From: a virus
Length of the DNA stretch: 35,411 bases
Strand: one strand, 5' to 3'
IMG/VR virus record: IMGVR_UViG_3300018049_003153
Coordinates: 1 to 35,411 of that record
Part shown: piece by piece, positions 5,350 to 35,348 of the stretch
Layout of the letters: each line of letters begins with the position of its first letter
How positions within the stretch are numbered: the first letter of the stretch is position 1
The notes under the pieces: model-generated
Database searches by the model: none
What the model was told of the DNA's origin: nothing
The model's input: the letters and a program-made list of their open reading frames with translations, nothing else
Position numbers and translations under genes: made by a program

Positions 5350-6252
5350 ATGGTTAACCAAATTATTTCAGCATATAGATATAATGTTTTATTTGAAGCA
5401 ATTGAAAATATATTAGGTATTCCAAGTGGAGAAGGCATTGGCTATAATCAAAATGTTGAAAGTGAACGGCTTCCTAAAACTCGTATAGTTTATGCAGAAG
5501 ACATGAATAAACTATATAATGATTATGTAGCTGTGTATGCACATCAAAATGGAACTATACCTGCAACAATTAGCACTGTATCAGATGAAAATGAGATAAC
5601 AGAGTCTTTGTATTCTGCTTATGAAACACTTTATCCTCTATTGTTTACAAATAGATTTGATGCAGATGCATCGCAAATGGATTTAGGTGTTTCTGCAGGT
5701 ATTGATAGTATTAGAACAAGCACATGGGGCGGCACAGGAACACCACAAAGTATCACACACGAATGGAGTGCTACATTTAGCAGTGGTAATAACCTAAATG
5801 GTTTTTTCAATGCAGGCGGCAGTTTTGAAATGTCTTTTTCAATGGGTTCGACTGGTAGTGATGATAAATCACAAGGCTGGGAAACTATGTTAAACAACAT
5901 AGGAAATGTTACAATTGATTATACAGGCACTACTGTTAGCGGTTCTGGTAGCCCAGCAAGCAACACTGGTATATACGATTTAACAACTTCTTACGTAAAA
6001 ATCTTTGAAAAACTAGGAACAGGAATTTATACTAATAACGATTTAGAAATATATGCCAGAAAAGACGGCAATGTAATTTATTTCAAAACTGTACTTGCTG
6101 ACGAAAGCATTGGATCAGATCCAGGCGGAGTAGGGCCTATTGACGAAGTTGTTACTGGTAGAATTACTAGTTTTGTAAGACAAAACAGACCAGTTGGTAG
6201 TTATGTAGAACTGCCTTCTCCATCATATCAAAATATCACTGTTTTCCAATAA
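5350..6252 (+). CDS. Putative tail/baseplate structural protein
   Basis: This 300-residue protein is a paralogue of the one at 7248-8303. Both begin with a short helical N-terminus (FEAIENILGI here, NNIKSILENNFGI there). Both contain a YxHQNG segment (YAHQNGTIP / YHHQNGAVK) and a central block with GFFNAGGSFEMSFSM...W.TMLNNIGNV, matched by HFFMTGGEVRMSVDM...W.TMMSNMGTV. Both also have a PIDE.VTG segment near the C-terminus. This architecture is typical of phage virion proteins of the tail or baseplate, but the exact role is unknown. An AAAAGGA site precedes the ATG. The 3' end overlaps the convergent minus-strand radical SAM gene by 30 bases. Confidence 0.7.
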   Translation: MVNQIISAYRYNVLFEAIENILGIPSGEGIGYNQNVESERLPKTRIVYAEDMNKLYNDYVAVYAHQNGTIPATISTVSDENEITESLYSAYETLYPLLFTNRFDADASQMDLGVSAGIDSIRTSTWGGTGTPQSITHEWSATFSSGNNLNGFFNAGGSFEMSFSMGSTGSDDKSQGWETMLNNIGNVTIDYTGTTVSGSGSPASNTGIYDLTTSYVKIFEKLGTGIYTNNDLEIYARKDGNVIYFKTVLADESIGSDPGGVGPIDEVVTGRITSFVRQNRPVGSYVELPSPSYQNITVFQ

Positions 6253-7182
6253 TTTGCCTTTGTAATCTTTTATCTTTTTAGTTGTTAAATCTGTTAAACA
6301 ACTGCAAAATTCATATTGGCATTTAACTGGAACATAAGGTATGTTAAAATTCATGTCGTGTATATTTCCTAAAATAAAATTAGGAAAACATTGACTACCT
6401 ATAGTAACATTGCCCTGTCTTGTTATGTTTAATGTATCTATACCAATCCAACAAGCCCAACCTTTAAATTTATTTTTCTTTTCCAGTAAAAGTTTTTGTA
6501 AGTCTATAATATTATTGTTTTCGTCTACCATTGTAACGCCATAGTTGTCTTTTTTGATACCTGGCAATTTTATTAATGATTGCATCTGTTTTATTTGTTT
6601 AGATGTATAAGGCATAGATTCTGCTTTGTCTAAACTTACACGTAAAGGTTTGTAATCTAATCTTATGTGTTTGTTCAAGTTTTTTAAACAGTAATCATAT
6701 TGTTGTAGTGCTAAATCAAAATTTTCAATATCCATACATATTTGAAAATGTATATCAAAACTTCCAGCACATGCATTAAATTTGTCTACTAAATCTACAA
6801 TATTAACCTGAGCAACATGAACACTTACAACTACACTATCTATATTGTTTTGATTTTTTTGCCACCAACGTTTTGTTTTATTACCGTTTGTTAGCAACTG
6901 TACTTTGTTTTTTGGACTGATGCTTTTTACATAGGAAAAAAACTCAGGAATTTCTCGCCATATAGTTGGCTCACCACCAAATAAATTATACACAGCAAAT
7001 TTATCTGTATAAGTTGCTGCTATTTTATCAACTAAAAGTTTTGCATTTTCTAATGTAGGAAAATTGTATTTTCCGTCGTGTGCTGCTGGTTCACAATAAT
7101 GGCATGCGTAATTACATCTACTACTCATATCCCAATCAATGTAAACAAAATCTCTAGATTGTGCGTAATCAAATTGATCCAT
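6223..7182 (-). CDS. Radical SAM protein with C-terminal SPASM-like cysteines
   Basis: This 319-residue protein starts at the ATG at 7182; the frame continues upstream, but that region is the divergent promoter area. The radical SAM cluster motif is CNYACHYC (Cys23, 27, 30), followed by GGEPT (69-73) as the SAM-contacting segment. A C-terminal auxiliary-cluster region has Cys244, Gly257, Cys265, Cys288, Cys293 and Cys295, reminiscent of SPASM. It therefore probably performs SAM-dependent radical chemistry; the substrate is unknown. It is a single gene in opposite orientation to, and inserted between, two paralogous tail genes, and it overlaps the upstream one tail-to-tail. An AAATACTGC sequence lies immediately before the ATG and no Shine-Dalgarno is visible. 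Confidence 0.85.
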   Translation of the reverse strand: MDQFDYAQSRDFVYIDWDMSSRCNYACHYCEPAAHDGKYNFPTLENAKLLVDKIAATYTDKFAVYNLFGGEPTIWREIPEFFSYVKSISPKNKVQLLTNGNKTKRWWQKNQNNIDSVVVSVHVAQVNIVDLVDKFNACAGSFDIHFQICMDIENFDLALQQYDYCLKNLNKHIRLDYKPLRVSLDKAESMPYTSKQIKQMQSLIKLPGIKKDNYGVTMVDENNNIIDLQKLLLEKKNKFKGWACWIGIDTLNITRQGNVTIGSQCFPNFILGNIHDMNFNIPYVPVKCQYEFCSCLTDLTTKKIKDYKGKLLENSDILI

Positions 7183-7186
7183 GCAG

Positions 7187-7192
7187 TATTTA
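7187..7192 (-). promoter_or_regulatory. Possible late-type box (TAAATA) before minus-strand radical SAM gene
   Basis: On the minus strand GTTAAATACTGC directly precedes the ATG at 7182, leaving four bases between the box and the start codon. The same TAAATACTGC string occurs at 31922-31931 on the plus strand. If used as a T4-type late promoter, the transcript would be nearly leaderless. The assignment is tentative because the box is incomplete. Confidence 0.35.
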
Positions 7193-7197
7193 ACCGG

Positions 7198-7227
7198 TTG
7201 ACAAAAACTAGGTAAATAAAGTATACT
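7198..7227 (+). promoter_or_regulatory. Sigma70-like promoter TTGACA-18-TATACT
   Basis: TTGACA at 7198-7203 and TATACT at 7222-7227 are separated by 18 bases. The gene start at 7248 follows, with a GGAG site at 7239-7242. The promoter sits in the 65-base divergent gap between the minus-strand radical SAM gene and the tail gene. Confidence 0.65.
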
Positions 7228-7238
7228 ATTAAGAAACT

Positions 7239-7242
7239 GGAG
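7239..7242 (+). promoter_or_regulatory. Ribosome-binding site GGAG that fixes the start at 7248
   Basis: GGAG lies five bases before ATG 7248. A GTG at 7242 overlaps this site and so is unlikely to be the start. Confidence 0.6.
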
Positions 7243-7247
7243 TGTAC

Positions 7248-8303
7248 ATGAGCGGTCAAGGTACAGCAATATTAGCTACTGACTTTAACAATATAAAAAG
7301 TATTTTAGAAAATAATTTTGGTATAGGTAATTATGGATTTAGCACCGGAACTGGTGCTAATGATATTCCTAATGATGTTGTAGGCGGTAGTGACCCAGCT
7401 ACAAGTGATACTGTTTTGTCTGCTGATGTTGAAAGACTGTATAGCGTAGGACAACTAATACACTATCATCAAAATGGTGCAGTTAAAAGTTTATCAAGTG
7501 CCACGGGTTATGCAGATTTGCAAGTTGGAGAATTAATAGAATTTGCAGATTGGGGAGATGCTGCTAGTGTACAAGGGTTATATGATCTTGCAAATTCTTG
7601 TGCTGCATTTAATAGGTATACTACAGAATTTAGCGGCGACTTTAGTGTTGCAAATAATAGATCGCTTCGTTTTTTGTCTGACTGGCAATCATTAAACATA
7701 ATCTACATACATACATGGAACAGTGCAAACGAAATGACACACTTTTTCATGACCGGTGGAGAAGTTCGTATGAGTGTAGATATGATTAATATAGGCACAG
7801 CGGGCGATGCTAGTTACGATAAAAACCTTAATTGGCAAACTATGATGAGTAATATGGGTACAGTCAGGTTATTCTTGCGTCCTAATAGTGCCGGAACTGG
7901 CTACGAATGGGTTACTGAAAGTTTAAGCGGCGGTGGCACAGGAAGCATAATAGCTGATACTAACAATGCTGGACCTGCTAACAGTGGCAATGCGTATCTA
8001 GCTTATCAAAGAAACGGAGCCGGCTCAATTTATAATGACAATGAAATACGTATTACTGCAACCATATCTGCATCATCAGTGCGTTTAGAGCTTGATCTAA
8101 TTGATGGAGATACAGGTACAGGTAATCCAGCAGATGGTCCATCTAGCACACCTATTGATGAACCTGTAACTGGAGATGTAAGAGCAAATAGTCAAATATC
8201 TTATGCAGATAGTACTATTACCTTAAATGATGGTACTGCTGATACAGACTTTACATTACTTGGACCTCAACCTACAACAACTACAGGTCTTTGGGCAACC
8301 TAA
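7248..8303 (+). CDS. Putative tail/baseplate structural protein, paralogue of 5350-6252
   Basis: This 351-residue protein is related to the gene before the radical SAM insertion. Matching blocks are the N-terminal helix (FNNIKSILENNFGIG), YHHQNG near residue 70, the FFMTGGEVRMSVDM block with NWQTMMSNMGTV in the centre, and PIDEPVTG near the C-terminus. Strand-rich, Gly/Ser/Thr-rich composition supports a virion protein. The start is placed at ATG 7248 because of the GGAG site just upstream; the in-frame GTG two codons earlier is not favoured. It has its own sigma70-like promoter. Two related tail genes split by a foreign-orientation gene suggest an old tandem duplication followed by insertion. 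Confidence 0.7.
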   Translation: MSGQGTAILATDFNNIKSILENNFGIGNYGFSTGTGANDIPNDVVGGSDPATSDTVLSADVERLYSVGQLIHYHQNGAVKSLSSATGYADLQVGELIEFADWGDAASVQGLYDLANSCAAFNRYTTEFSGDFSVANNRSLRFLSDWQSLNIIYIHTWNSANEMTHFFMTGGEVRMSVDMINIGTAGDASYDKNLNWQTMMSNMGTVRLFLRPNSAGTGYEWVTESLSGGGTGSIIADTNNAGPANSGNAYLAYQRNGAGSIYNDNEIRITATISASSVRLELDLIDGDTGTGNPADGPSSTPIDEPVTGDVRANSQISYADSTITLNDGTADTDFTLLGPQPTTTTGLWAT

Positions 8304-8315
8304 ATCATATATCCG

Positions 8316-8344: not shown

Positions 8345-8356
8345 GTAACCACAATT

Positions 8357-8361
8357 GGAGG
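8357..8361 (+). promoter_or_regulatory. Strong ribosome-binding site GGAGG that fixes the start at 8367
   Basis: GGAGG is five bases before ATG 8367. The in-frame TTG at 8355 overlaps the site and is rejected as a start. Confidence 0.65.
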
Positions 8362-8366
8362 TTTCT

Positions 8367-8714
8367 ATGGACGAGCGTCTTGAAAAAGCATTAGACATCA
8401 GTAACTACATGGTTACATTAAACAATCAAACACGTATTTTAAAAGAAAAGTATTACGAAAATCTTGTGTATTATTTCAATGGTGCTACTTTTACTGTTAC
8501 AAGAGAGTTAATTAACTTTATCAAAGGTTTAATAGATAGTGATCAGCAATCTGTAATTATAAGCGATGATAATGATATTCCTATTGAGATTGAAAACTTA
8601 GAAGAATTTCATCAAAATATTTTGAATACATATTTTACAGCATCAAATGAATACTTTGTTGAATACAACAAAATGAAAAGTAATAGAAACGTTGAAGGTA
8701 TTTTAGATATATGA
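8367..8714 (+). CDS. Small conserved-looking protein of unknown function
   Basis: This 115-residue protein is rich in charged residues, with predicted helices at both ends (MDERLEKALDISNYM; EEFHQNILNTYF) around a short strand segment (QQSVIISDDNDIPIEI). No catalytic motif, signal peptide or membrane segment is visible. The opening resembles small proteins I recall from cyanophage genomes, without known function. It is first in an operon with a strong promoter and ribosome-binding site. Its stop overlaps the next start (ATGA), so it is translationally coupled to a glycosyltransferase-like gene. Confidence 0.75.
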   Translation: MDERLEKALDISNYMVTLNNQTRILKEKYYENLVYYFNGATFTVTRELINFIKGLIDSDQQSVIISDDNDIPIEIENLEEFHQNILNTYFTASNEYFVEYNKMKSNRNVEGILDI

Positions 8715-9535
8715 GCAAAGGTGTTTTACTGTTTGCCAAAAGAAACAATGCATTAGATTATATTAAACAAGCTATATTTTGTGCTAAACGTGTAAAAAAA
8801 TATTTAGACGTTCCAGTATCAATTGCTACTGATATGGTAGATGATGATAGACTTGATTTTTTTGATCATGTAATTAAATTACAGCCAAGCAATAATGATA
8901 ACTCTAGAAAATTTAGAGATGGAAATCTTGCAACTAAGTTGGCAAACTTTAATAATGCAGATAGATATTTTGCATACGAATTAAGTCCTTATGACGAAAC
9001 TATCGTAATGGATACAGATTACATACTTGCTAATGATAAACTTAAAAATTGTTTTGGTTCTAAACAAGATTTGATGATGTATAGCAGTGCTGTAGATTTA
9101 TGTCATTGGCGTAATTTGACTGAATTTGATAGAGTAACTGATACAAGTATAAAGTTTTATTGGGCTACAGTTGTATATTTTAAAAAAACAGAAAAAACTA
9201 AATGCTTTTTTGATCTTGTGCAACACGTAAAAGAAAATTATACTCATTACAAAAGTTTGTATCAAATAATTAATCCGCTGTATAGAAATGATTTTGCCTT
9301 TAGTATTGCTGCTCATATACTAAATGGATTTACAGAAGATTTAACAATTGCAAGTTTACCAGGTAAAAAATACTTTACTACTGATAGAGATATATTGCAG
9401 AGTATTGACAATGATAAAATGATAATGTTGTTAGAAAAACAAAATCATGTTGGAGAATATACTGCAATAAAAACCAATAAACAAAGCATACATGTAATGA
9501 ATAAAATTAGTTTAGAAAGAGTGATTGATGGATAA
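8711..9535 (+). CDS. GT-A type glycosyltransferase-like protein
   Basis: This 274-residue protein has features of nucleotide-diphospho-sugar transferases. A Rossmann-type start (GVLLFAKRNN, then AIFCAKRVKKYLDVPVSIATD) is followed by ETIVMDTDYIL, whose DTD (residues 101-103) is a metal/sugar-nucleotide-binding DxD motif. The size and order resemble family GT8-type or related GT-A enzymes. No membrane anchor is seen, so it would be cytoplasmic during infection. It is related in layout to the next gene, which suggests a tandem pair. The donor, acceptor and even activity are inferred, not shown. It overlaps both neighbours. Confidence 0.65.
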   Translation: MSKGVLLFAKRNNALDYIKQAIFCAKRVKKYLDVPVSIATDMVDDDRLDFFDHVIKLQPSNNDNSRKFRDGNLATKLANFNNADRYFAYELSPYDETIVMDTDYILANDKLKNCFGSKQDLMMYSSAVDLCHWRNLTEFDRVTDTSIKFYWATVVYFKKTEKTKCFFDLVQHVKENYTHYKSLYQIINPLYRNDFAFSIAAHILNGFTEDLTIASLPGKKYFTTDRDILQSIDNDKMIMLLEKQNHVGEYTAIKTNKQSIHVMNKISLERVIDG

Positions 9536-10367
9536 AAACTTTACTCTCCTAGCTCAAAATAGTGACGAAGATTACGTTAAGCAAGCGTGTTTATGTGCAA
9601 TGAGTATACATGCTACAAATCCTGAAAGCAATGTTTCTTTAATTACTAATGACACTGTGCCTGAGAAGTATAAACAACTTTTTGATCACATAGTAGAAAT
9701 ACCGTGGGGCGATCACGCAGCAGAAGAAGATTGGAAAATAAGCAATCGTTGGAAAATATATCATGCAACACCGTATGATAATACTATGGTGCTTGACACT
9801 GATATGTTAATATTACAAAATTTAGATAGATGGTTTACTTATTTAGATAATTATGATCTATATTACACTAGCAATGTGTTAACATATAGAGGAGAAACGG
9901 TAACAAGTGATTACTATAGAAAAGCATTTACACAATTTGACTTGCCTAATTTATATAGTGGAGTGCATTGGTTTAAAGAACGTCCTCTAGCAAAAGAATT
10001 TTATGCTTGGTTAGAAATGATTACTAATAATTGGCAATTGTTTTACAAACATCATGCAGGAGGCAAAACGTTTCAAAAAAAATGTAGTATGGATTTAAGT
10101 GCAGCTATCGCAGCAAAGATAATGAACTGCGAAAATCAAATCACAAGTAATACTAGTTTTCCAACTTTTGTTCATATGAAACCAAAGTTACAAAAATGGA
10201 ATGCTTATGATAGTTTATCATGGCAATCACGTATTAGTGTTTACTTGAACGATGATTTAGATTTGTATGTTGGTAATTTTAAACAAAGTGGTATATTTCA
10301 TTATACAGAAAAAGATTTTGCAAAAGACGAAATAATAAACACATACGAAAAGCACTTGGGGATATAA
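9528..10367 (+). CDS. GT-A type glycosyltransferase-like protein
   Basis: This 279-residue protein starts at ATG 9528, overlapping the preceding stop by eight bases. It opens with FTLLAQNSDEDYVKQACLCAMSI, like its upstream neighbour. PYDNTMVLDTDMLIL (DTD at residues 90-92) is the DxD motif. The C-terminal half has YSGVHWF and a CSMDLSAAIAAKI helix near residue 190, as in acceptor-side segments of GT8-like enzymes. Two adjacent related GTs suggest sequential sugar addition. Acceptor candidates include the neighbouring virion proteins or a phage glycan; this is inference. Confidence 0.7.
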   Translation: MDKNFTLLAQNSDEDYVKQACLCAMSIHATNPESNVSLITNDTVPEKYKQLFDHIVEIPWGDHAAEEDWKISNRWKIYHATPYDNTMVLDTDMLILQNLDRWFTYLDNYDLYYTSNVLTYRGETVTSDYYRKAFTQFDLPNLYSGVHWFKERPLAKEFYAWLEMITNNWQLFYKHHAGGKTFQKKCSMDLSAAIAAKIMNCENQITSNTSFPTFVHMKPKLQKWNAYDSLSWQSRISVYLNDDLDLYVGNFKQSGIFHYTEKDFAKDEIINTYEKHLGI

Positions 10368-10928
10368 ATGCCAATAGTAGTAAAAAGTAATACAAAAAAA
10401 TATATTGAATTTGACGACGAAGGTAATATACAGGCTATAGTGAATACACCAAGCAGTGATCAATACATTCAAGTAGATAGCAAGGATATAATAGATTTAA
10501 TTAAAGGTATTGTACCTACACATCAATATCGAGTAGAGTTTGATATTGTAAAAAAAGATTATGTGTTGAATAAAACTGATTATTGGGAAGAAGCAAGAAG
10601 CTCTGATAGTTTTTTACATAAAATAGAATACAATGAAGATGCTGATGCTACATTAATCCAAAATAACATAAAAAAACAATGGGAATTAAAATTAGGTAAA
10701 AAAGTTTTACAAAATATGGATAAAATAAATGTCAATATGAAAAACTTGATTACCGGATTTAGTATTACTGATAAAAATAATCCTTATAATTTACATTATA
10801 TTTTAAACTTTGAAACTGATAAATTTACAATTCCTTTTCCTGATAATTTTCAGTTTGACAAATCTCTAGTAAGTGTTTATACTGTAAGGAGATTAGAGTC
10901 TTATTCTCACGAGGTAATCAATGACTGA
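10368..10928 (+). CDS. Protein of unknown function
   Basis: This 186-residue acidic/Asn-rich protein begins with MPIVVKSNTKKYIEFDDEGNI, a short beta-hairpin-like start. A mixed region with several Lys-rich helices follows, ending in FETDKFTIPFPDNFQFDKSLVSVYTVRRLES. I recognise no family motif, signal peptide or membrane helix. The start immediately follows the upstream stop, and the 3' end overlaps the next gene by eight bases, so it is part of the operon. The beta-strand-rich C-terminus would be compatible with a small virion or accessory protein, but that is a guess. Confidence 0.7.
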   Translation: MPIVVKSNTKKYIEFDDEGNIQAIVNTPSSDQYIQVDSKDIIDLIKGIVPTHQYRVEFDIVKKDYVLNKTDYWEEARSSDSFLHKIEYNEDADATLIQNNIKKQWELKLGKKVLQNMDKINVNMKNLITGFSITDKNNPYNLHYILNFETDKFTIPFPDNFQFDKSLVSVYTVRRLESYSHEVIND

Positions 10929-11838
10929 TATTTTTAGAGTAGTTGATCATGACATAATTTATCTTAGTTATGATGAGCCCAATGCCGAACAAAACTATGC
11001 AGATTTGCTTACAAAAGTTCCTTGGGCTAAACGTGTACACGGTGTAAAAGGAAGTGATGCTGCACACAAAGCTGCTGCAAATGCAAGTGATACAGAAAGA
11101 TTTATTACTATCGATGGTGATAATCGAATACGTGAAACTTTTTTAAGCCAAGAAGCAGATTTAAGTGAATATGACTTAACTGATAAAGTCATAAGTTGGA
11201 CTGCTTATAATCAAATAAACGGACTTGCATATGGCAACGGCGGTATTAAGTGTTGGCCTAAACATAAAGTTTTAAGTATGAAAACGCATGAAAACGCAGA
11301 TCCAGACAATGCACATGCACAAGTAGATTTTTGTTGGGACTTGCAATATATTCAAATGAATGGAACATTCAGTGACATTTACAATAATGCAACACCTCAA
11401 CAAGCATGGAGAGCAGGATTCCGTGAAGGTGTTAAAATGGCACTAGATCAAGGTATAAAACCAGATATTGAAGATTTTAAACGCAATCATTGGAAAAATT
11501 TGCATAGACTTTGGATATGGTTAATGGTAGGTGCAGATGCTGATAACGGACGTTGGGCAATTTATGGAGCAAGAGAAGGTTTGTACAAAACTATGTGTAC
11601 AGATTGGAACTTTATCAACGTGCGTGATTTTGAATGGTTAAACGATTATTGGAATAATATCGAGGTTAATGAAGAAACATTAGAAGATGAAACTCAAAGA
11701 CTCGGTGATGAACTTATGAATGAATTACAGGCTCCAATTGCATTACAGCCGTTAGATGCAAATCAAAGTAAGTTTTTTAAAACAGTGTATCAAAATCCTG
11801 TACGTAATCCTAAGTTTATCGATAAGGAACTTGGATGA
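10921..11838 (+). CDS. GT-A-like protein of the DGD-motif family (paralogue of 15225)
   Basis: This 305-residue protein begins with IIYLSYDEPNAEQNYADLL, then AKRVHGVKG, AAHKAAANASDTERFITIDGDNRI. The DGD (residues 65-67) sits where GT-A enzymes carry the DxD motif. GLAYGNGGIKCWP and AWRAGFREGVKM follow. The protein at 15225 carries the same blocks in the same order (FISYKEPNADENYQRLL, AKRIHGVKG, VDGDAQI, GLEYGYGGIKLFP, WKSAFRECVKL), so the two are clear paralogues. I infer a glycosyltransferase-like fold; activity is unproven. The ATG overlaps the previous gene by eight bases, and the stop overlaps the next ATG (ATGA). Confidence 0.65.
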   Translation: MTDIFRVVDHDIIYLSYDEPNAEQNYADLLTKVPWAKRVHGVKGSDAAHKAAANASDTERFITIDGDNRIRETFLSQEADLSEYDLTDKVISWTAYNQINGLAYGNGGIKCWPKHKVLSMKTHENADPDNAHAQVDFCWDLQYIQMNGTFSDIYNNATPQQAWRAGFREGVKMALDQGIKPDIEDFKRNHWKNLHRLWIWLMVGADADNGRWAIYGAREGLYKTMCTDWNFINVRDFEWLNDYWNNIEVNEETLEDETQRLGDELMNELQAPIALQPLDANQSKFFKTVYQNPVRNPKFIDKELG

Positions 11839-13208
11839 GCGAAAGAGACGAAGCAGTTCGTATAACAAAATACACAGACGAACAGATTTCTCCTACATTT
11901 TGTTTTGCTAAATGGTATCATGCAAACATTTATTTTCAGACAGGTGAAACACACAGTTGTTATCATCCTGCTCCTCATACAATTGATACACAAGCTATTT
12001 TAAAAAATCCTAGTGCTATTCATAATACAAAACAAAAAATTGAAGAACGTGCTGCAATGTTGCGTGGTGAACAACCTAAAGGCTGTCAATACTGTTGGAA
12101 CATTGAGAATATGGGTCCTGATTATATCAGCGATCGTAAAACCCGTAGCAGTAGTATTTACAACGAGGAAAGATTAAATGCTGTAAAACAAGGTGGCGCA
12201 GAATTTAATGTTAATCCGGAATATTTAGAAGTTAGCTTTGGTAATGAATGTAACTTCCGTTGTGGTTATTGTCATCCAAAAGCCAGCAGCAGATACTATC
12301 AAGAAATTAAGCAACACGGTCCATATGATATGGTGCGCAATCACCGATGTGATGTTGATTGGTTTAAAATTTATGAAGAAGACAATAATCCGTACCTAGA
12401 TGCATTTTGGAAATGGTGGCCTGATTTAAGCAACGACTTAACTATTTTACGCATCACAGGTGGAGAACCAACAATACAAAAGAGCACATATAAACTTTTT
12501 GATTTGTTGGAGCAGGATCCAAAGCCTCATTTAGAATTGAATGTTAACAGTAATTTAGGAGGCAAACCAAAGCAATTAGAAAAATTTACCGATGCAGTAA
12601 ATAGTTTGCTTAGTCAAAATAAAATTCGTAGATTCAAACTGTTTACAAGTATTGACACTTGGGGTGAACGTGCTGAGTACATACGTAACGGATTAGATAT
12701 TGATGTATTTGAGCGTAATTTAGATTATTTTATGCGTAATACAAATGCACCTGTAACTATAATGATTACATTTAATATTTTCAGTGTTACAACTTTTCAA
12801 ACATTACTTGAAAAAATATTAGAATGGCGCCGAAAGTATAATGATGTTGAAACATTTCGGTGGAATCGTTTAAGTTTTGATACACCTTATCTAAAAGAAC
12901 CATTACAATACGATATTAATATTTTGCCTCAGGAATATATGAAGTATATGCACAGTCATTTACAGTTTATAAAAGACAACTTAGATGATGAACGTAAAGA
13001 TGCATTTACTACAATGGAATATGAACGTTTTAGGCGTGTAGTTGATTACATGGATTCAACACAGTATGATCCTGCAAAAGTTATGCAAGGTCGTATTGAC
13101 TTTTGGCGTTTTTTCAATGAGCAAGATAAAAGAAGAAATACAAATTTTAAAGAAGCATTTCCTGAAATGGCTGACTTTTTTGAAACTTGTAAAGATACTG
13201 CTAGTTAA
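11835..13208 (+). CDS. N-terminal-twitch radical SAM protein
   Basis: This 457-residue protein has an auxiliary-cluster-like N-terminus: Cys23, Gly37, Cys42 (C-X13-G-X4-C), then Cys84 and Cys87 (GCQYC). This precedes the radical SAM core with CNFRCGYC (Cys139, 143, 146) and GGEPT (209-213). The second half is mixed alpha/beta, consistent with a partial TIM barrel. The C-terminal tail RRNTNFKEAFPEM resembles the tails at 22195 and 34083. Having the SPASM/twitch-like half before the core is the reverse of the usual order. The substrate is unknown. It is the last gene of the 8367 operon, and its stop shares a TTAA with the convergent gene. Confidence 0.85.
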   Translation: MSERDEAVRITKYTDEQISPTFCFAKWYHANIYFQTGETHSCYHPAPHTIDTQAILKNPSAIHNTKQKIEERAAMLRGEQPKGCQYCWNIENMGPDYISDRKTRSSSIYNEERLNAVKQGGAEFNVNPEYLEVSFGNECNFRCGYCHPKASSRYYQEIKQHGPYDMVRNHRCDVDWFKIYEEDNNPYLDAFWKWWPDLSNDLTILRITGGEPTIQKSTYKLFDLLEQDPKPHLELNVNSNLGGKPKQLEKFTDAVNSLLSQNKIRRFKLFTSIDTWGERAEYIRNGLDIDVFERNLDYFMRNTNAPVTIMITFNIFSVTTFQTLLEKILEWRRKYNDVETFRWNRLSFDTPYLKEPLQYDINILPQEYMKYMHSHLQFIKDNLDDERKDAFTTMEYERFRRVVDYMDSTQYDPAKVMQGRIDFWRFFNEQDKRRNTNFKEAFPEMADFFETCKDTAS

Positions 13209-13807
13209 AACAAAGGCAAAATTTCTTCAGCTTCTGGCCAACGTTCGTCTTCCATTTCTTTGTAGTAATTATCTACCTTAAACTTCCAAAAACTTTGTAT
13301 AGTTCCTCTATATTCTAGTTCAATCGGTTCTTCTAAAAATCCTTGCTTACGCCATTCTGGAGCCCAACGTGTGTGTACAGCTCGTTGTTTTGCAATTGGG
13401 CTAGGGTGAGTGCTTATGTACAAAGGATTATCTCTGCCGCAATGCTCAATACATGCAGGAATTAAAAATTGCGCACTTGGGTGATCATGTGGCCGCGGCG
13501 CACCTCTTAAGTTTCTTAAAGTGTTATGATTGCGTACACCTTGTACTAGATGTCCTAGCATACAAATTCTAGCACCTATGCGATAAGCGTTTCGTCCTAA
13601 TATTTCTAAGCCTGTTAACTTATGGCTTACAACACAGCCTACAATATTTTCATAGTTGTATAATAAGAATAAAGTTGAATCTTTTTCTTTTTCAAGAGAT
13701 GATAAAAGCATATCGGCGTTACTATTGTTGTAGTAACGCTTTTTTTCTGCTTCAATAAAAAAGTTTGTTAAATTTTGTGAACCATCATAGGTTTCAATTT
13801 TCCACAT
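13205..13807 (-). CDS. Possible GNAT-like acyltransferase, otherwise unknown
   Basis: This 200-residue protein has a central NIVGCVVSHKLTGLEIL-ILGRNAYRIGARICML stretch. That recalls the strand-turn-strand core of GNAT acetyltransferases, and it is followed by a helix-rich region with HSER-like polar segments (CIEHCGRDNPLYISTH). The acetyl-CoA P-loop (Q/RxxGxG/A) is not clear, so the assignment is weak. Similar proteins of unknown role occur in my recollection of T4-like marine phages. The ATG lies six bases after a consensus TATAAT, which would give a leaderless transcript. The stop coincides with that of the convergent radical SAM gene. Confidence 0.5.
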   Translation of the reverse strand: MWKIETYDGSQNLTNFFIEAEKKRYYNNSNADMLLSSLEKEKDSTLFLLYNYENIVGCVVSHKLTGLEILGRNAYRIGARICMLGHLVQGVRNHNTLRNLRGAPRPHDHPSAQFLIPACIEHCGRDNPLYISTHPSPIAKQRAVHTRWAPEWRKQGFLEEPIELEYRGTIQSFWKFKVDNYYKEMEDERWPEAEEILPLF

Positions 13808-13813: not shown

Positions 13814-13842
13814 ATTATAGTATAAAAATTATCCTAAGTCAA
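13814..13842 (-). promoter_or_regulatory. Sigma70-like promoter TTGACT-17-TATAAT
   Basis: On the minus strand TTGACT (13837-13842) and TATAAT (13814-13819) are 17 bases apart. The -10 ends six bases before the ATG of the gene at 13807, so the expected start of transcription is at or next to the first codon. The -35 lies inside the last codons of the upstream minus-strand fibre gene. Confidence 0.7.
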
Positions 13843-24901: not shown

Positions 24902-25455
24902 TCATTACAGGAAATTTAGAAGAAAATTTAGCAAACGCATTGCATAAAATATACCCATATGCTCAATATTGCAGTCGTACAACAGGATTTGATTTAAGTT
25001 TACGTGAAGATCAAGTACGTGTAGCACAACTAGTTTTAGAACATGATGTTTTTATAAATTGTGCAGCATTATTTAAATTCCATCAAACAAATTTGTTAGA
25101 TGAAGTATATCGTGTGTGTACTGAAAATAATCATCGTCCTCATATTATTAATATAGGCAGTACAACCGATCGTGTAAAAAACGGAAAAGCATGGAGATAC
25201 AATGCCGAAAAGAAGGCGTTGCGTGATTACAGTAACACACTTGGTATAAGCGGAGTATGGGGTAAAACGCCAAAAATTACATACATAAGTTTTGGTACGC
25301 TAAGTAATAATAGTAAAAAACATCCAGAAAGAGTTTGCTTAGATATTAACCGAGCAGCAGAATATATTAAATGGATTGTAGATCAACCTAAAGACATAGG
25401 TATAAATGAAATAAGTATTGATCCTATGCAAGACAAATATTGGAACGAAGAATGA
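24898..25455 (+). CDS. Short-chain dehydrogenase/reductase-like protein
   Basis: This 185-residue protein resembles an SDR Rossmann fold but is shorter than the usual 240-260. It begins MIITGNLEENLANALHKIYP in place of a full TGxxxGIG motif. VFINCAALFKF (51-61) corresponds to the NAG region, HIINIGSTT (Ser88) to the catalytic Ser strand and YNAEK (Tyr101 to Lys105) to YxxxK. The glycine-rich loop is not canonical, so NAD(P) binding is uncertain. It could be a redox partner in the same tailoring pathway. Start overlaps the radical SAM stop; the stop overlaps the oxygenase ATG. Confidence 0.6.
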   Translation: MIITGNLEENLANALHKIYPYAQYCSRTTGFDLSLREDQVRVAQLVLEHDVFINCAALFKFHQTNLLDEVYRVCTENNHRPHIINIGSTTDRVKNGKAWRYNAEKKALRDYSNTLGISGVWGKTPKITYISFGTLSNNSKKHPERVCLDINRAAEYIKWIVDQPKDIGINEISIDPMQDKYWNEE

Positions 25456-28658: not shown

Positions 28659-29902
28659 GTAAAACATTTTGTCCTATGCCATTTACTCATTTGAATATTA
28701 AACAAGAAGGCAAAGTTAGTGCCTGTTGGCGTTTTCCTGATAAATTAGGCGATTATAGAACTCAAACATTACAAGAAATTTGGAACGATGACGCATTGCA
28801 AAAACTAAGACACGACAGTTTAAATGATGTGCAAAATATTGGATGTAGAAGCTGTTGGGATATGGAGAAAAGTGAAAGTATTAGCACACGTATGCAGTGC
28901 AGTCAAACTTTTCCTTATGTCAACCAACCGTTTGTAGAAGAACATATTCAAGAAGATTATAGCTTTCCAACAAAATATATACGCAGTGTTGAAATACGTT
29001 TCGATAATATTTGCAATTTAATGTGTAGGCATTGTAGTCCTGATTATAGTAGTGTTTGGGAACAAGCAGTCAAGCGTGATCCTGCACTAATGGACAAGAT
29101 GCAAGAATATGGAACTTATAGAAAAGATGTTAACCATGTAAGTCTTACACAAGAAATGGTAGACGAAATAGCAAATGAGCTGGCACCTAACTTAGAAGAA
29201 ATAATGATTGCCGGCGGCGAACCATTGTATCATGACAAGCACTACAAATTTCTTGAAGACATGCAACCATATGCAAGTAACATACGCTTGAGTTACAACA
29301 CTAACCTAAACATATTAGAATACAAAGGTAAAAGTGTGTTAGACTTGTGGAAAAATTTCAAAGAAATTTGGTTGCGTATTAGTATAGATGGCGATCCTAG
29401 TTGTTATGAATATGTACGTGCAGCAGGTAATCTACACAAAGTTGAAGAAAACATAAAAAAACTAAACGAAACACTAATTAATACAGATATAAGTGCTACT
29501 TGTACTGTGAGTTTGTACAACATAACAAGATTTACTAACATTGTAAAATATTTTTGCGGATTAGATGTTTATTTTCACACAAGTTTGGTGCAATATCCAG
29601 AAGCTCTAAACATAAAATTGCTTCCACAAGAATTAAAAGATTCTATTACACAAGAATTTTGGCATTGGTATGAAAATGAAGCTGAAGATTATGTTAAAAG
29701 TGTTAGTAAAAAAGTAAAAGTACAAAAACAACTAGACAGAATTAAAAAATTTGCTACAAATACACTCAATTACATGAACAGCGAAGATAGACATGACAAA
29801 TGGCATTTGTTTTTAGATTACAGTGCCGCTTTAGATAGCTATCACGGCACTGATTTGTTCGAGAGTTACTCCGAATATTCTTCAAAATTAAATAAATCGT
29901 AA
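28655..29902 (+). CDS. N-terminal-twitch radical SAM protein
   Basis: This 415-residue protein has Cys6-X12-Gly19-X4-Cys24 (CPMPFTHLNIKQEGKVSACW) and Cys64/Cys67 (GCRSC). The core is CNLMCRHC (Cys120, 124, 127) with AGGEPLYHDKHY. The segment SIDGDPSCYEYVRAAG near residue 245 and the C-terminal ALDSYHGTDLFESYSE are divergent from the other family members. The 3' end overlaps the convergent minus-strand gene by 37 bases. It is the last plus-strand gene before the two minus-strand genes. Confidence 0.85.
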   Translation: MSKTFCPMPFTHLNIKQEGKVSACWRFPDKLGDYRTQTLQEIWNDDALQKLRHDSLNDVQNIGCRSCWDMEKSESISTRMQCSQTFPYVNQPFVEEHIQEDYSFPTKYIRSVEIRFDNICNLMCRHCSPDYSSVWEQAVKRDPALMDKMQEYGTYRKDVNHVSLTQEMVDEIANELAPNLEEIMIAGGEPLYHDKHYKFLEDMQPYASNIRLSYNTNLNILEYKGKSVLDLWKNFKEIWLRISIDGDPSCYEYVRAAGNLHKVEENIKKLNETLINTDISATCTVSLYNITRFTNIVKYFCGLDVYFHTSLVQYPEALNIKLLPQELKDSITQEFWHWYENEAEDYVKSVSKKVKVQKQLDRIKKFATNTLNYMNSEDRHDKWHLFLDYSAALDSYHGTDLFESYSEYSSKLNKS

Positions 29903-31155
29903 TCTTTTTGCAAATCATCTAATATATCATTATATTTTTTGAACTTTTGTAAATCGCTTGCTGGAACTTTGATATCACAATATAAGTTTGAGTTTATTTT
30001 TGCAACACGTTTAATATGACTTGCTGTAAGTGTGTTTATTTGTTGTAATCCAAACTGTAATGCATTGCTTCTAAACCCTGGAATGTCACCAATTGCATGA
30101 TATATACCAGTAATATTGAATTTTTCTAATTCGTTAATAATTGCAGCATCATCAAACAACATATTTGCAAGTGCATATGAATGATTTTTTGTTTTGTATA
30201 TTTGCCATGCATCGTATATAGCATCTTTGCTACCAAATTCTTGTAACAGCACATTCCATTGTTTCTCTATAATGTTATCTGAGCTATTATTCCAAAAATC
30301 AAAATCTCCATCACCTGCGTCATTGCACAAAGAAAGAGTTTTAACTAATCCTTTTTTTGTACCATCCCAATTTTTTGTAATTAGCTTTTTCCAAAGTAGA
30401 TTTCGATCAAAAATATCAAAGTGTAAATAGTTTTCTACATTGTCTATATACTTACTACCTAGTATAAATGCTTTAAACATGCTACAAGGGCCTACAACAG
30501 TGTTTATAGCGCCCTGTACGGTACTCAAATGTGTTTTATCAGTGCATATAGCTTCTGTATTATAAAGAAAAAACACCCCTTTATCCTGATCATTTGCGTG
30601 CCTTGGATTACGTGTTGTAAGAAGTTTAATAAACAAATCAGTAAGGTTTGTATTAATAATAGGAAGTTTAGTAAAATGATTTAACTCGTCATTCCATGCC
30701 TGTGGATTTTGTGTTGCTTTAGAATCTAATAACTGTTTAATTATTACGTTATTGATTTTTTTACTATCTGATTTTATGTAATCAGCAATCTTGGGTTTTC
30801 CTTTTTCTCGCCAATGTTTTAAATTTATTATCTGTATAGTTGGAGATTTTTTGTCGTGTATTACACTCCACTCTGTTTTATGACTTTCTATATCATATAT
30901 ACACATTTTATGAATATGCCAAAAATCGTGATGATACATTCCAAACCAAGTCACAATTAGATATTCAGTTTTTTTGTCAGCAATTATATCTAATATGTCA
31001 TCTACTGATTCTGCCCATACAAATGGATGCTGCTCAACACTTTGTTTTACATAATGTCCACGTTGATAATACAACATCCAGCTTTGATAAAGGTCTCGAT
31101 CAATATTGTTTTTTATATTTTTAGGTACAACAACGGCATGTTGTATATTAAGCAT
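29866..31155 (-). CDS. Two-domain protein of unknown function, paralogue of 20803
   Basis: This 429-residue protein starts at the ATG at 31155, which follows GGAG and lies inside the last codons of the upstream gene. The frame extends further 5' into that gene, but the ribosome-binding site favours this start. Shared blocks with 20803 are IHDKKSPTIQIINLKHWREKG (99-119; compare HDQAFYLNTKKLKEI), FFLYNTEAI (185-193), VQGAINTVV (203-211), FDIFDRNLLWKKL (226-238) and NWDG (242-245). The common YNT...D..DR..L...WDG pattern is distinctive. I do not recognise a characterised family. The pair suggests a family specific to this cluster. Confidence 0.6.
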   Translation of the reverse strand: MLNIQHAVVVPKNIKNNIDRDLYQSWMLYYQRGHYVKQSVEQHPFVWAESVDDILDIIADKKTEYLIVTWFGMYHHDFWHIHKMCIYDIESHKTEWSVIHDKKSPTIQIINLKHWREKGKPKIADYIKSDSKKINNVIIKQLLDSKATQNPQAWNDELNHFTKLPIINTNLTDLFIKLLTTRNPRHANDQDKGVFFLYNTEAICTDKTHLSTVQGAINTVVGPCSMFKAFILGSKYIDNVENYLHFDIFDRNLLWKKLITKNWDGTKKGLVKTLSLCNDAGDGDFDFWNNSSDNIIEKQWNVLLQEFGSKDAIYDAWQIYKTKNHSYALANMLFDDAAIINELEKFNITGIYHAIGDIPGFRSNALQFGLQQINTLTASHIKRVAKINSNLYCDIKVPASDLQKFKKYNDILDDLQKDYDLFNFEEYSE

Positions 31156-31882
31156 AAATTTTTCTCCAGTGATGGTAACTTTCTTCAATACGTTTGTTCC
31201 AACCGTCACCTAACCTGCCGTGTGCAATAATATGATATCTATCCTCATTGCTCCAATTATATACACAATGTATATTATAGAGATTTAACTTGATAATACG
31301 TCCTTGTTCCCAAGGCAAATAGCCTATTTCGTCCATGTAGAAATGGCATTCTTCTGGATTGTTTAATGCTATATTAGTAGGACCGATATGATTTTCGTCT
31401 AGTGTAATACTATCTCTATGTGGAATAATCCAGCCTCCTGGAGATAATTTCATAATACGTATTCTGTCATACTGTTTGTAATCAAATCTGTTTTCAAAAA
31501 AATCTCTAATAGTAGGACACCAGTCTGCTACGTCGGTCCACCTGTATGGTGCGTCTTTTCTGTCATTGTATCCGTAAGTATGATGAGATTCTGTGTGTAC
31601 ACTACTCAAGCCATGGATGCACAAACTACTCCAACCGCTGTGACTTTCATGATGTCTATGAGGAACATAGTGTTTTTCTAATCTTTTAGCTTCCCAAAGC
31701 ATTTTCTCCCAATCAGCATCTTCAAAACCTGTAATAGGTAAAAAGTCTAGTTGATCACTCATGTGTATTTCACGAGATGTTTTTAAGTTTTGTGGATATT
31801 TTGGTTTAGCTGGAAATTTATTACGTTCTGCAAATATCTCTGGCGGTTCGTTGCTTACTCCCCATTCTGTAATTGTATACAT
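31148..31882 (-). CDS. Aspartyl/asparaginyl beta-hydroxylase-like 2OG oxygenase
   Basis: This 244-residue protein has WIIPHRDS (His155, Asp157) followed by NLYNIHCVYNWSNEDRYHIIAHG, with distal His205 and Arg215. That is the order seen in aspartyl/asparaginyl beta-hydroxylase-type oxygenases (Fe via HxD...H, 2-oxoglutarate via the arginine). This would hydroxylate a peptide side chain or related substrate. It differs in family from the oxygenase at 25452, so the region has two kinds. An AAAGGA site lies before the ATG, and a divergent late box lies upstream. It is coupled by an eight-base overlap to the following minus-strand gene. Confidence 0.75.
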   Translation of the reverse strand: MYTITEWGVSNEPPEIFAERNKFPAKPKYPQNLKTSREIHMSDQLDFLPITGFEDADWEKMLWEAKRLEKHYVPHRHHESHSGWSSLCIHGLSSVHTESHHTYGYNDRKDAPYRWTDVADWCPTIRDFFENRFDYKQYDRIRIMKLSPGGWIIPHRDSITLDENHIGPTNIALNNPEECHFYMDEIGYLPWEQGRIIKLNLYNIHCVYNWSNEDRYHIIAHGRLGDGWNKRIEESYHHWRKIYA

Positions 31883-31918: not shown

Positions 31919-31920
31919 TG

Positions 31921-31927: not shown

Positions 31928-31945
31928 CTGCGGAGAATAGAAAAT

Positions 31946-32929
31946 ATGAGCCTTGTTGCATATCATAAATTACACAAAAAAATAGATGACTTATCCGAAT
32001 GGGGAATGTTTTTTAGAAAAGTAAACTTTCCAAAAAGAACAACAGACAATTGTAGATGTAAAAGAGATTTGAAATATATTTTGTGGGGCATAGCTAGATG
32101 TATTTTGCATCAAGATCCAAAATTAATTAACGAGATTTCTCATAAATTTGTAAAAAATAAAAAACTTGTCCTAACTGATCATAGAGTAGAATTAGCTGTT
32201 TATGCTTATATAGAAGGTGAGTTATACAAACTACTTAAACACCATAGAGATGATGTTGAAATTATGATAGAAGCAATGCAGTTGCTAAAAGATAATTTTA
32301 AAAAACTAGAAGAAGCAAACTACACTAGAGAATTTAGTGATTTGATTAAAGAAAGAAAAACTACATTTACATGGTTAGATAAAAAAGTTACGCAAGAAAC
32401 AGTTGAAGATATATTGTTAGACTTACACATGTACGCACCTAGTAAACAAAATAGAATGCCTTACTATCTTGATGTTTTAGATTGGAAGGACCCTGAGTTG
32501 AGACATAATATTTTTGAATGGTGCTGGAGAGACCTTAAACATGATGCACAAACAGATAAAGGAAATCCTCAAACATTAGCACCTTATCTATTTTGTTTTA
32601 CTCCACGGATATCTAATAATCCTGACGATAATGCTTTGGAAGAAGCAATGATTGAAATAGGTATAGCCAGTAGCTTTATTATTTGGAATGCACAAAGTAG
32701 AGGATTAAGTACAGGTTATTGTGCATGTATTCAAGATCCTACAATGATAAGTAATGCATTAGGACGTCCGAATAATCAGGTTAAATTGTTATTAGGTATG
32801 GGCTACAAAGATGAGAACGCTAACAGTTATTTTGATCCAAGAATACAGGCCGATAAATTGCTACCAAGTGATAATTCATTCCATAAATCTAATCAGGAAA
32901 ATATAGGATCTTATATCGTATGGCATTAA
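31946..32929 (+). CDS. Nitroreductase-like flavoprotein with N-terminal extension
   Basis: This 327-residue protein has a helical N-terminal ~140 residues without a recognised family. The C-terminal part resembles an FMN-dependent nitroreductase: MYAPSKQNRMPYY (162-174) corresponds to the FMN-binding SPSxxN segment. IGIASSFIIWNAQSRGLSTGYCACI (238-262) is the helix-loop of the flavin site, and LGRPNNQVKLLLGMGY (262-277) matches the family's end. Such enzymes reduce or oxidise small molecules or peptides; some act in peptide-azole biosynthesis. A GGAGA site precedes the ATG. It is the first gene of the operon, coupled to a radical SAM gene by a ten-base overlap. Confidence 0.65.
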   Translation: MSLVAYHKLHKKIDDLSEWGMFFRKVNFPKRTTDNCRCKRDLKYILWGIARCILHQDPKLINEISHKFVKNKKLVLTDHRVELAVYAYIEGELYKLLKHHRDDVEIMIEAMQLLKDNFKKLEEANYTREFSDLIKERKTTFTWLDKKVTQETVEDILLDLHMYAPSKQNRMPYYLDVLDWKDPELRHNIFEWCWRDLKHDAQTDKGNPQTLAPYLFCFTPRISNNPDDNALEEAMIEIGIASSFIIWNAQSRGLSTGYCACIQDPTMISNALGRPNNQVKLLLGMGYKDENANSYFDPRIQADKLLPSDNSFHKSNQENIGSYIVWH

Positions 32930-34086: not shown

Positions 34087-35348
34087 CAAAGGAATGGAAA
34101 AACCCAGATTGGTTCCCTGCAAAAGGCAATAGAGCGTGTTTGCTTAAATGGAGTCAAGTTACATTAAGTTTATGGGATAACACTAGTAGTAGTTGTCACA
34201 GAAATGGAATGCATCAAATAGGTGAGGATTTTGATTTTCATAATGAACCAAAATGGGTAGAACATAGAGAAAAAATGTTAAATGGCGATTGGCCTAGTGA
34301 TGGATGGGGTTGCGAACATTGTCGAGATCAAGAAGCTATAGGCGGAACTAGCGATAGGATGCAATGGCTTAGTAATAACAATAACAAAAGATATGTTCCA
34401 AAAGAACTTTTTAATAATCCAACTGCCACTCGTATAAAACCTACACAAGTAAGTATGCATTTTAATAATAAATGTAATTTAAAGTGTGTTTATTGTGGGC
34501 CTCAGTATAGCAGTGCTTGGGTGAAAGAAATGCAAAAATATGAACCTAAACATAGTTTTATACAAGATGTAGATATAAAAGAAAAAACGTACGAACAAAG
34601 ACTGGAAAAATTCTACAAATGGATGGAAAACAATTATAGCAGTCTTAAAGCGTTTGATTTATTAGGCGGTGAACCTTTTATACAACAAGAAACATGGGAC
34701 TGTGTTGATTGGATGATAAAGCATCCTAATCCGGAATGTGATATAGAAATATACAGCAATATGGAAGTAAAACCTAAACTTTTTAAAAGAGGATGCGAAA
34801 AATTAAAAGAACTTAGCAAAACAGTCAAAGAAGTTGTATTTGTAATTAGTGTAGATACTTTTGGACCAGAAAGTGAGTATATAAGATTTCCACATAATTG
34901 GGAAGTTATGGAAGATAATATAAATTATTTAATTTATGAATGCCCAGAAATTATTCCAACTATGAATTGGACTGTTACTAATCTTAGTCTAAAAACTACT
35001 CCGGCATTAGTCCGTAAAGTTATTGAATGGAATAAACATCGGTATGTAAGTGTAAATTATAATAGATGTCACGATCCACATTTTTTTGATCCAAAAATTA
35101 TGCCAGAAGGGTTTTACGATGATGTAATTGATGAACTAAAAGAATTAAATCAAATAATGTATCAAGGAAACAACAGTCCATATATGGATTATGTTAACAC
35201 TATTTTCAAAGAAATAAACGAAACACCTGCAGATTACGAAGCTATAAAAATGCTTAAATGGCGCCTAACAGAACTTGATAAACGTAGGGGCACAAATTGG
35301 CAAGAAACATTTCCTTGGTTAACAACTGTTGGACATAATAGAATTTGA
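34083..35348 (+). CDS. N-terminal-twitch radical SAM protein
   Basis: This 421-residue protein has Cys19...Cys38 (C-X18-C, with Asn at the Gly position), then Cys77 and Cys80 (GCEHC). The core is CNLKCVYC (Cys131, 135, 138), followed by LLGGEPFIQQ. SVDTFGPESEYIRFPHNWEVM is in the middle. The C-terminal motif RRGTNWQETFPWL resembles 11835 and 22195. It is the last complete gene in the window and the last of the 31946 operon. A sigma70-like promoter begins at its stop codon. Confidence 0.85.
   Translation: MTKEWKNPDWFPAKGNRACLLKWSQVTLSLWDNTSSSCHRNGMHQIGEDFDFHNEPKWVEHREKMLNGDWPSDGWGCEHCRDQEAIGGTSDRMQWLSNNNNKRYVPKELFNNPTATRIKPTQVSMHFNNKCNLKCVYCGPQYSSAWVKEMQKYEPKHSFIQDVDIKEKTYEQRLEKFYKWMENNYSSLKAFDLLGGEPFIQQETWDCVDWMIKHPNPECDIEIYSNMEVKPKLFKRGCEKLKELSKTVKEVVFVISVDTFGPESEYIRFPHNWEVMEDNINYLIYECPEIIPTMNWTVTNLSLKTTPALVRKVIEWNKHRYVSVNYNRCHDPHFFDPKIMPEGFYDDVIDELKELNQIMYQGNNSPYMDYVNTIFKEINETPADYEAIKMLKWRLTELDKRRGTNWQETFPWLTTVGHNRI

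Follow-up and report, generated by a model that had tools for sequence, protein, structure and literature searches.

Radical SAM and glycosyltransferase genes beside the fibre genes of a T4-like marine phage: a candidate pathway for glycosylation of fibre-like proteins

The window considered here, the complete 35,411-base IMG/VR record IMGVR_UViG_3300018049_003153, comes from an uncultured T4-like marine myophage and is most likely a piece of a bigger genome. Downstream of its opening tail and virion genes lie about 30 tightly packed and frequently overlapping genes, including twelve radical S-adenosylmethionine (SAM) genes and four glycosyltransferase (GT)-like genes. Two blocks of this cassette keep a near-invariant order across related phage loci, and its core enzymes also occur in bacterial chromosomes; gene content, gene order, the folds of two protein families and the bacterial occurrence of the core were established directly. 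The reading that is tentatively favoured, somewhat short of probable, is a pathway in the cytoplasm in which fibre-like surface proteins would be glycosylated and their glycan then remodelled by radical chemistry. Its substrate and product, including the acceptor, as well as the order of steps, all of the chemistry and any benefit are what we infer here.

Gene blocks in phage loci and bacterial chromosomes

A search of IMG/VR with the protein of the radical SAM gene 22195 (genes are named by their first coordinate in Table 1) retrieved 383 relatives, the best 80 of which show 82-100% identity, while the cultured phage collection yielded two remote matches. Clustering of open reading frames (ORFs) over the first 80 loci drawn from these relatives gave the gene order, which was then re-anchored on non-radical-SAM genes; the counts are not all independent, given contigs shared between locus sets and possible repeats of one virus population. 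Block 1 runs from a fibre-like gene through a gene for a 119-residue protein, two GT8-like genes, a gene for a 186-residue protein and a GT-A transferase gene to a radical SAM gene. With the GT8-like gene 8711 alone as anchor (41 loci), the fibre-like gene was found upstream in all 37 loci with room for it, accompanied by the 119-residue protein (40 of 40), the second GT8-like gene (41 of 41), the 10921-type GT-A gene (36 of 36), a radical SAM gene (34 of 36) and additional tail proteins (36 of 37). Block 2 comprises a GT-A gene, a methyltransferase gene, the gene for a 74-residue protein and a radical SAM/SPASM gene. Anchored on the 74-residue gene alone (80 loci), it shows the methyltransferase upstream in 79 of 80 loci, a GT-A-like gene upstream in 77 of 77 and the 17689-type radical SAM gene downstream in 60 of 61. 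Twelve loci form a phage family in which a single polypeptide contains two GT-A domains and the methyltransferase, with short repeats of varying number between them. This fixed order across many contigs lends good support to a conserved tailoring pathway beside the fibre genes, as the first-pass annotation had proposed, whereas its word "undescribed" was too strong in view of passages in PMC2853527, PMC5332604 and PMC7029224. Lack of clustering in related phages, which that annotation had named as grounds for dropping its proposal, was not what the loci showed.

Twenty long relatives contain 5 to 22 radical SAM genes each. The relative G004 carries T4-like gp6, gp20, gp21, gp23, gp25, gp46, gp47 and gp55, with gp25 and gp6 upstream of the fibres and the cassette; in the window itself, which is a fragment, tail proteins adjoin the cassette, and of the markers bordering host-recognition clusters (VrlC and gp13/14), VrlC and gp14 were not identified. 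Identity of the G004 capsid protein is 70% with Vibrio phage 2.275.O and 67% with PA5oct, both jumbo phages, and the same capsid type occurs in three further cassette-bearing contigs. A pelagimyophage origin for G004 was rejected, its T4 core genes being remote from those of HTVC008M (32% identity for gp23) and its capsid being closest to those of Vibrio phage 2.275.O and PA5oct. Since certain contigs of this capsid lineage have no N_Twi-type (twitch) radical SAM gene in the available fragment, it is probable that the cassette is accessory, with the reservation that absence cannot be proved from fragments. This patchiness, together with radical SAM sets that differ strongly from locus to locus and the published hypervariability of the region (PMC7029224), would fit a hypervariable locus that gathers unrelated metabolic genes, the co-location with fibres reflecting recombination hot spots and not a joint function. 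Such an explanation is judged rather improbable, as it has to contend with the two near-invariant blocks, the domain fusions and the recurrence of core genes in chromosomes.

Bacterial counterparts were sought with a DNA pattern of the twitch radical SAM core, of which exact matches only were taken, so the sample is not exhaustive; ten stretches in genome assemblies were obtained. The G028 chromosome has, between tuf and secE-nusG-rplKAJ-rpoBC, an island of some 40-50 kb that encodes homologues of 22195 (62% identity), 23588 (52%), 17689 (44%), 15225, 10921 and 16243. On the contig concerned (C34, L107-L110), this big island breaks a neighbourhood in which the two gene groups usually adjoin. 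Similar islands are present in G022, G027 and G159 (936-kb contig), and several core genes occur in G079 (1.62-Mb contig), G149 and G199. Bacterial homologues show identities of 59-62% to 22195, 49-54% to 23588, 44-48% to 17689, 28-33% to 16243 and 40% to 24898. As homologues of at least 56% identity were found in 9 of the 192 sampled genomes of the phylum (Bdellovibrio relatives; the query's own genome excluded), the system is an accessory one there too. The Rickettsiales MED657 genome G024 (L100, L103) has about 30 N_Twi matches, identical ones recurring on several contigs, which probably come from phages and were assigned to the bacterial genome in binning. In view of possible misbinning of phage DNA, neither these nor Acidimicrobiaceae contigs were counted as bacterial evidence.

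A counterpart of block 1 lies beyond pheT in G199, where a 22195-type radical SAM gene, a GT-A gene and a further radical SAM gene are followed by genes for a fibre-like protein, the 119-residue protein, two GT8 enzymes, a 163-residue ORF and a GT-A enzyme, with more twitch radical SAM genes after them. From fibre to GT-A this is the order of the phage window, with 33% identity for the 119-residue protein and 48% for the 10921-type GT-A; the 163-residue ORF shows no similarity to the 186-residue protein 10368 in the matching place. The fibre-like protein has its best phage homologue at E 9e-22, matches 5350 at E 2e-11 and shares the motif FFN(A/S)GGE with several phage fibre-like proteins. The remaining genes in the flank are ordinary chromosomal or radical SAM genes, and no phage gene besides that for the fibre-like protein was recognised in the flanks as read. 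These bacterial gene sets, one of them with a fibre gene, suggest, but do not prove, that fibre-like surface proteins are decorated.

Enzymes encoded by the cassette

Twelve ORFs in the window bear the CX3CX2C motif in a frame-by-frame search, all where the first-pass annotation had placed its radical SAM genes, and the sole additional match falls in an antisense frame of 91 codons. All twelve match PF04055 (E at most 1e-3; weakest for 18783, at 1e-3 to 6e-5), nine of them above the curated cut-off, and by motif and core they belong to the radical SAM superfamily. Seven are twitch proteins of the type modelled by NF033640 (N_Twi_rSAM), a family that has no assigned reaction: 11835, 22195, 23588, 27297, 28655 and 34083 exceed its cut-off of 170 bits and 32920 falls narrowly under it, and all seven have, ahead of the radical SAM core, the invariant N-terminal twitch cysteines C9, C27, C90 and C93 (22195 numbering). 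Assignment of all twelve to this family was rejected, the other five scoring far under the cut-off; they are 17689, 19791 and 26189, with C-terminal SPASM-type cysteines, the minus-strand 6223, and 18783. The last has no SPASM of its own, and a separate 96-residue ORF (19501) shows a SPASM-like cysteine pattern and weakly matches the C-terminus of a full-length radical SAM protein (E 5e-4), so that 18783 and 19501 apparently represent one split enzyme. Three near relatives (L001-L003) have this small ORF as well. The 81 related loci hold 638 motif-bearing ORFs of more than 200 residues, or about 1 per 2.3 kb, a density far above chance. Among the relatives with a solved structure, SkfB and YydG have peptide substrates and cytosylglucuronate decarboxylase a sugar nucleotide, so that no radical SAM reaction can be named.

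The four GT-like genes noted previously fall into two pairs. A profile of 8711 and 9525 (alignment A5) matches glycogenin at E 4e-4 with D101 and D103 invariant, and these proteins, which as single sequences have no Pfam match, are probably distant GT8 members. Genes 10921 and 15225 encode one family with an invariant DxD (alignment A3). Structure prediction was applied to the GT-A and methyltransferase families because a PDB sequence search gave nothing useful for either. The AlphaFold model of the GT-A family (predicted local distance difference test score, pLDDT, 87.5) recovered GT-A enzymes with Foldseek at a best E of 2e-4, including S-glycosyltransferases and a PBCV-1 capsid glycosyltransferase, which points to a GT-A-like fold with DxD. 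The model of 16243 (pLDDT 86) resembles SAM-dependent transferases (Foldseek E 2e-6), in keeping with the methyltransferase-like call made earlier and with a predicted class-I fold. Among bacterial relatives, a 1220-residue protein of G025 (L111:9895-13557) fuses a 10921-type GT-A domain to two GT2 domains, and in G027 the GT-A domain adjoins a DegT aminotransferase and a nucleoside diphosphate-sugar epimerase. The GT families, the fusions and these sugar-nucleotide neighbours are the grounds for assuming glycan chemistry. The G025 protein also has a CX3CX2C stretch, seen by motif alone and without a Pfam call. In relatives of the phage, short repeats (LRKAVLEENLHSLFRLLG type) vary in number among the methyltransferase proteins and degenerate GT-like modules among the 15225-type proteins (examples at L053:4080-7463, L059:1210-4443, L056:5357-6676 and L076:1214-3439).

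The redox genes of the first-pass annotation fared unevenly. The nitroreductase-like 31946 and one of the two proposed 2-oxoglutarate (2OG) oxygenases, 31148, are supported by Pfam matches, whereas 25440 is oxygenase-like solely by its invariant HxD...H and 24898 only weakly resembles a short-chain dehydrogenase/reductase (SDR).

Table 1. Features of the window, with coordinates, strand and main evidence
Feature	Coordinates	Strand	Evidence or remark
Three tail/virion proteins with a common N-terminal module	34..5329	+	34-1947 tail collar; 1947-3779; 3815-5329
Fibre-like protein 1, proposed acceptor	5350..6252	+	Kept upstream of GT8 pair
Radical SAM protein between two fibre-like genes	6223..7269	-	PF04055 E 4e-10
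Fibre-like protein 2	7242..8303	+	Distant 5350 paralogue, 24% identity
Conserved 119-residue protein	8355..8714	+	Upstream of GT8 pair
GT8-like glycosyltransferase 1	8711..9535	+	Profile A5, invariant DxD
GT8-like glycosyltransferase 2	9525..10367	+	Profile as for 8711; follows 8711
186-residue protein	10368..10928	+	Position held in G199 by dissimilar ORF
GT-A-like transferase	10921..11838	+	AlphaFold and Foldseek
Twitch radical SAM (N_Twi_rSAM)	11835..13208	+	NF033640 319 bits
Conserved protein, perhaps acetyltransferase-like (unproven)	13205..13807	-	In 26/81 loci
Fibre-like protein inside cassette	13829..15154	-	Weak PHROG tail-fibre match; homologue in 35/80 loci
GT-A-like transferase, degenerate N-terminal module	15225..16256	+	Alignment A3, invariant DxD
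Class-I methyltransferase-like protein	16243..17130	+	Predicted fold
Conserved 74-residue protein	17127..17351	+	Block 2 anchor
Radical SAM, C-terminal SPASM/twitch cysteines	17689..18786	+	PF04055 E 4e-10
Apparently split radical SAM	18783..19791	+	Core 18783-19508; SPASM-like ORF 19501-19791
Radical SAM, SPASM-type cysteines C-terminal	19791..20813	+	PF04055 E 2e-11
Paralogue of 29866 (minus strand)	20767..22167	+	Alignment A9
Twitch radical SAM, most conserved gene	22195..23595	+	NF033640 427 bits
Twitch radical SAM	23588..24901	+	NF033640 372 bits
SDR-like oxidoreductase (weak)	24898..25455	+	NCBIfam YdfG E 0.003, under cut-off
2OG-Fe(II) oxygenase-like	25440..26276	+	Invariant HxD...H, alignment A8
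Radical SAM, SPASM-type cysteines C-terminal	26189..27316	+	PF04055 E 1e-11
Two twitch radical SAM genes	27297-28658, 28655-29902	+	NF033640 296 and 295 bits
Paralogue of 20767	29866..31209	-	Alignment A9
Aspartyl/asparaginyl beta-hydroxylase-like	31148..31882	-	PF05118 Asp_Arg_Hydrox E 1e-8
Nitroreductase-like	31946..32929	+	PF00881 E 2e-7
Two twitch radical SAM genes	32920-34086, 34083-35348	+	NF033640 159.5 (just under cut-off) and 248 bits

The proteins at 34..5329 match PHROG tail and virion structural families (the collar also PF07484, Collar, at E 3e-9) and have homologues in identical order in phages G003 and G004. The fibre-like proteins 5350 and 7242 have a GG and further invariant positions in common (alignment A10). 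The Pfam scan gave no match for the proteins at 13205..13807, 20767..22167 and 25440..26276, and no homologue of the 119-residue protein was found in cultured phages.

Substrate of the pathway and competing explanations

Membrane proteins are scarce in the cassette and its relatives. No membrane segment was found in the 35 window proteins by a simple hydropathy test, and ORFs with at least two transmembrane segments number 8 of 1359 in related phage loci, compared with 7 of the 51 ORFs of a bacterial island, so that lipid-linked polysaccharide assembly is seemingly not encoded. Likewise, no initiating transferase, flippase, polymerase or ligase was recognised in the window, though the host could supply them. 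These observations bear on the proposal that the enzymes change the surface glycan of the infected host (O-antigen or capsule), for example to exclude competing phages. Glycosyltransferases of the pelagimyophage host-recognition cluster, where GT8 is the most frequent GT family, have been interpreted in print in this way (PMC7029224). UDP-glucose dehydrogenase, cytidylyltransferase and carbamoyltransferase genes in some relatives, as well as GT2 and membrane proteins in core-bearing bacterial islands, agree with it. Besides the missing assembly functions, however, it is at odds with the near-invariant pairing with one fibre-like family and with the fibre-like gene that accompanies the enzymes in the G199 chromosome, and it is regarded as unlikely, albeit with appreciable weight.

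SPASM/twitch radical SAM enzymes frequently mature peptides, and the cassette might likewise make a natural product that is diffusible or derived from a peptide. Its precursor or carrier would be the 74-residue protein or some other small protein, and the twitch/SPASM radical SAM enzymes would be the maturases. The structural kinship with SkfB and YydG and the position of the 74-residue gene ahead of the radical SAM/SPASM gene (60 of 61 loci) are in its favour. The 74-residue protein 17127, which is without known relative, occurs in 464 IMG/VR stretches at a mean identity of 65% and in 61 of 80 loci at 70% identity or more. It does not look like the precursor of a ribosomally synthesized and post-translationally modified peptide (RiPP), as it is conserved over its full length without a leader/core pattern, and a search of the bacterial loci L097-L118 did not recover it. 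No peptidase or exporter was recognised in the window, although neither an exporter nor a RiPP recognition element (RRE) was searched for directly. As this explanation also leaves the glycosyltransferases unaccounted for, it is considered quite unlikely.

Glycosyltransferases, 2OG oxygenases and radical SAM enzymes are known from phage DNA hypermodification, and a hypermodified base could hide the genome from restriction. Relatives of the window carry PP-loop ATPase genes whose C-terminal cysteines read like QueC (50 of 81 loci, not the window; L007:13557-14387; families 10 and 15), and a weak sub-threshold TAGT match falls on a GT2 domain of the bacterial fusion. Nevertheless, the Pfam scan of the window contained no TET/JBP or hydroxymethylpyrimidine synthesis gene, thymidylate synthase appeared in 1 of 88 family representatives of other loci, the cassette lies in the fibre region apart from replication genes, and the core recurs in bacterial chromosomes, once beside sugar-nucleotide genes. 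A modified base is thus a very improbable product. AMP-ligase genes were also observed, in 18 of the 81 related loci.

Glycosylation of fibre-like proteins is the explanation preferred here. It draws on the two near-invariant blocks, the domain fusions, the G199 locus, the sugar-nucleotide neighbours, the scarcity of membrane proteins and the likeness of the GT-A model to S-glycosyltransferases and a PBCV-1 capsid enzyme, among others. The acceptors would be the virion fibre-like surface proteins 5350, 7242 and perhaps 13829, a proposal that follows from the near-invariant adjacency to a fibre-like gene and from the bacterial copy, and the pathway would be soluble. Both GT8-like enzymes and the GT-A 10921 would furnish the fibre with a short glycan, perhaps assisted by the 119- and 186-residue proteins, and this glycan would be extended or capped by the GT-A 15225, the methyltransferase, the 74-residue protein, the radical SAM 17689 and the nearby radical SAM 22195. 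The remaining twitch and SPASM radical SAM enzymes, with the 2OG oxygenase, the SDR and the nitroreductase, might oxidise, rearrange or crosslink sugars or side chains and would be the fast-changing part of the cassette. The outcome may be a variable chemical coat on the organ of host contact. The first-pass annotation had left a peptide, a glycan or a virion protein open as substrate, and the evidence now leans towards glycosylation of fibre-like proteins.

Several observations count against this proposal. A host-range locus would equally show adjacency to fibres, peptide enzymes (SkfB, YydG) stand among the structural relatives of the radical SAM proteins besides the sugar-nucleotide enzyme, the two blocks could act on different substrates, and the Foldseek template modelling scores of the GT-A model are low (0.2-0.5). 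Moreover, most bacterial clusters consist of the radical SAM/GT-A/methyltransferase core without a fibre-like gene, and the block of fibre and GT8 genes occurs in 1 of the 192 sampled genomes of the phylum, for which reason a phage may have passed it on recently. Even if it was transferred, fibre and enzymes moved and stayed as a unit.

A bolder proposal, which is thought unlikely but deserves mention, is that a new type of post-translational modification exists on phage fibres and on fibre-like surface proteins of some Bdellovibrio relatives: a protein-bound glycan made by GT8/GT-A enzymes and then reworked by as many as twelve interchangeable radical SAM enzymes. If so, this glycan and its enzymes would chemically vary an organ of host or prey recognition. 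The favoured pathway, if right, would extend radical chemistry to virion proteins and explain the gathering of radical SAM genes at the host-recognition loci of ocean phages. The two blocks and their bacterial counterparts narrow the question to one fibre-like protein with five neighbours and to one module of methyltransferase, 74-residue protein and radical SAM enzyme, and the chromosomal clusters named above are places where the same enzymes are open to genetic study.

Known systems and the late-promoter octamer

Phages rich in radical SAM genes, and radical SAM cassettes in host-recognition clusters, have already been published, without an assigned function, whereas the two-block anatomy is apparently new. 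No description of the two blocks and their bacterial counterparts was found in the open-access literature, subscription papers and preprints lying outside the search. The T4-like Campylobacter phages CP220 and CPt10 encode 11 and 12 radical SAM proteins, for which metabolic fitness under low oxygen has been suggested (Timms 2010, PMC2853527). As in the window, a radical SAM block of CP220 lies beside two nucleotide-sugar transferases; however, identity is about 24% over half of one radical SAM protein, and an amidinotransferase is present on the Campylobacter side. TARA_ERS488813_N000010, a T4-like environmental ocean genome of 183 kb with 12 radical SAM genes, is discussed in the relevant passage as a user of Fe-S clusters (Nishimura 2017, PMC5332604), which gives neither a cassette anatomy nor a function. 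Pelagimyophage host-recognition clusters (HTVC008M, Mosig EXVC030M) contain radical SAM cassettes (Zaragoza-Solas 2020, PMC7029224) and resemble the window in being variable and fibre-adjacent, with glycosyltransferases and 2OG or Asp/Arg hydroxylases; that of Mosig EXVC030M also has nitroreductases and similar enzyme types. In contrast, the capsid of the window's relative is nearest to Vibrio phage 2.275.O and PA5oct, not Kyanoviridae, and a tblastn comparison of the window's GT8, GT-A, 119-residue and fibre-like proteins with 50,697 records of cultured phages gave no match. Mycobacteriophages decorate structural proteins with virus-encoded glycosyltransferases (Freeman 2023, as cited in PMC12619734). 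PBCV-1 similarly encodes a glycosyltransferase that decorates a structural protein. To our knowledge, neither radical SAM enzymes nor fibre-linked GT8 pairs take part in virion glycosylation in mycobacteriophages or PBCV-1.

The first-pass annotation had also pointed to T4-type late boxes. This late-promoter argument was rejected, as the exact octamer TATAAATA occurs 0 times in the window against 8.2 expected. TATAAAT is nonetheless found 25 times, and selection against the full late-promoter octamer is possible.

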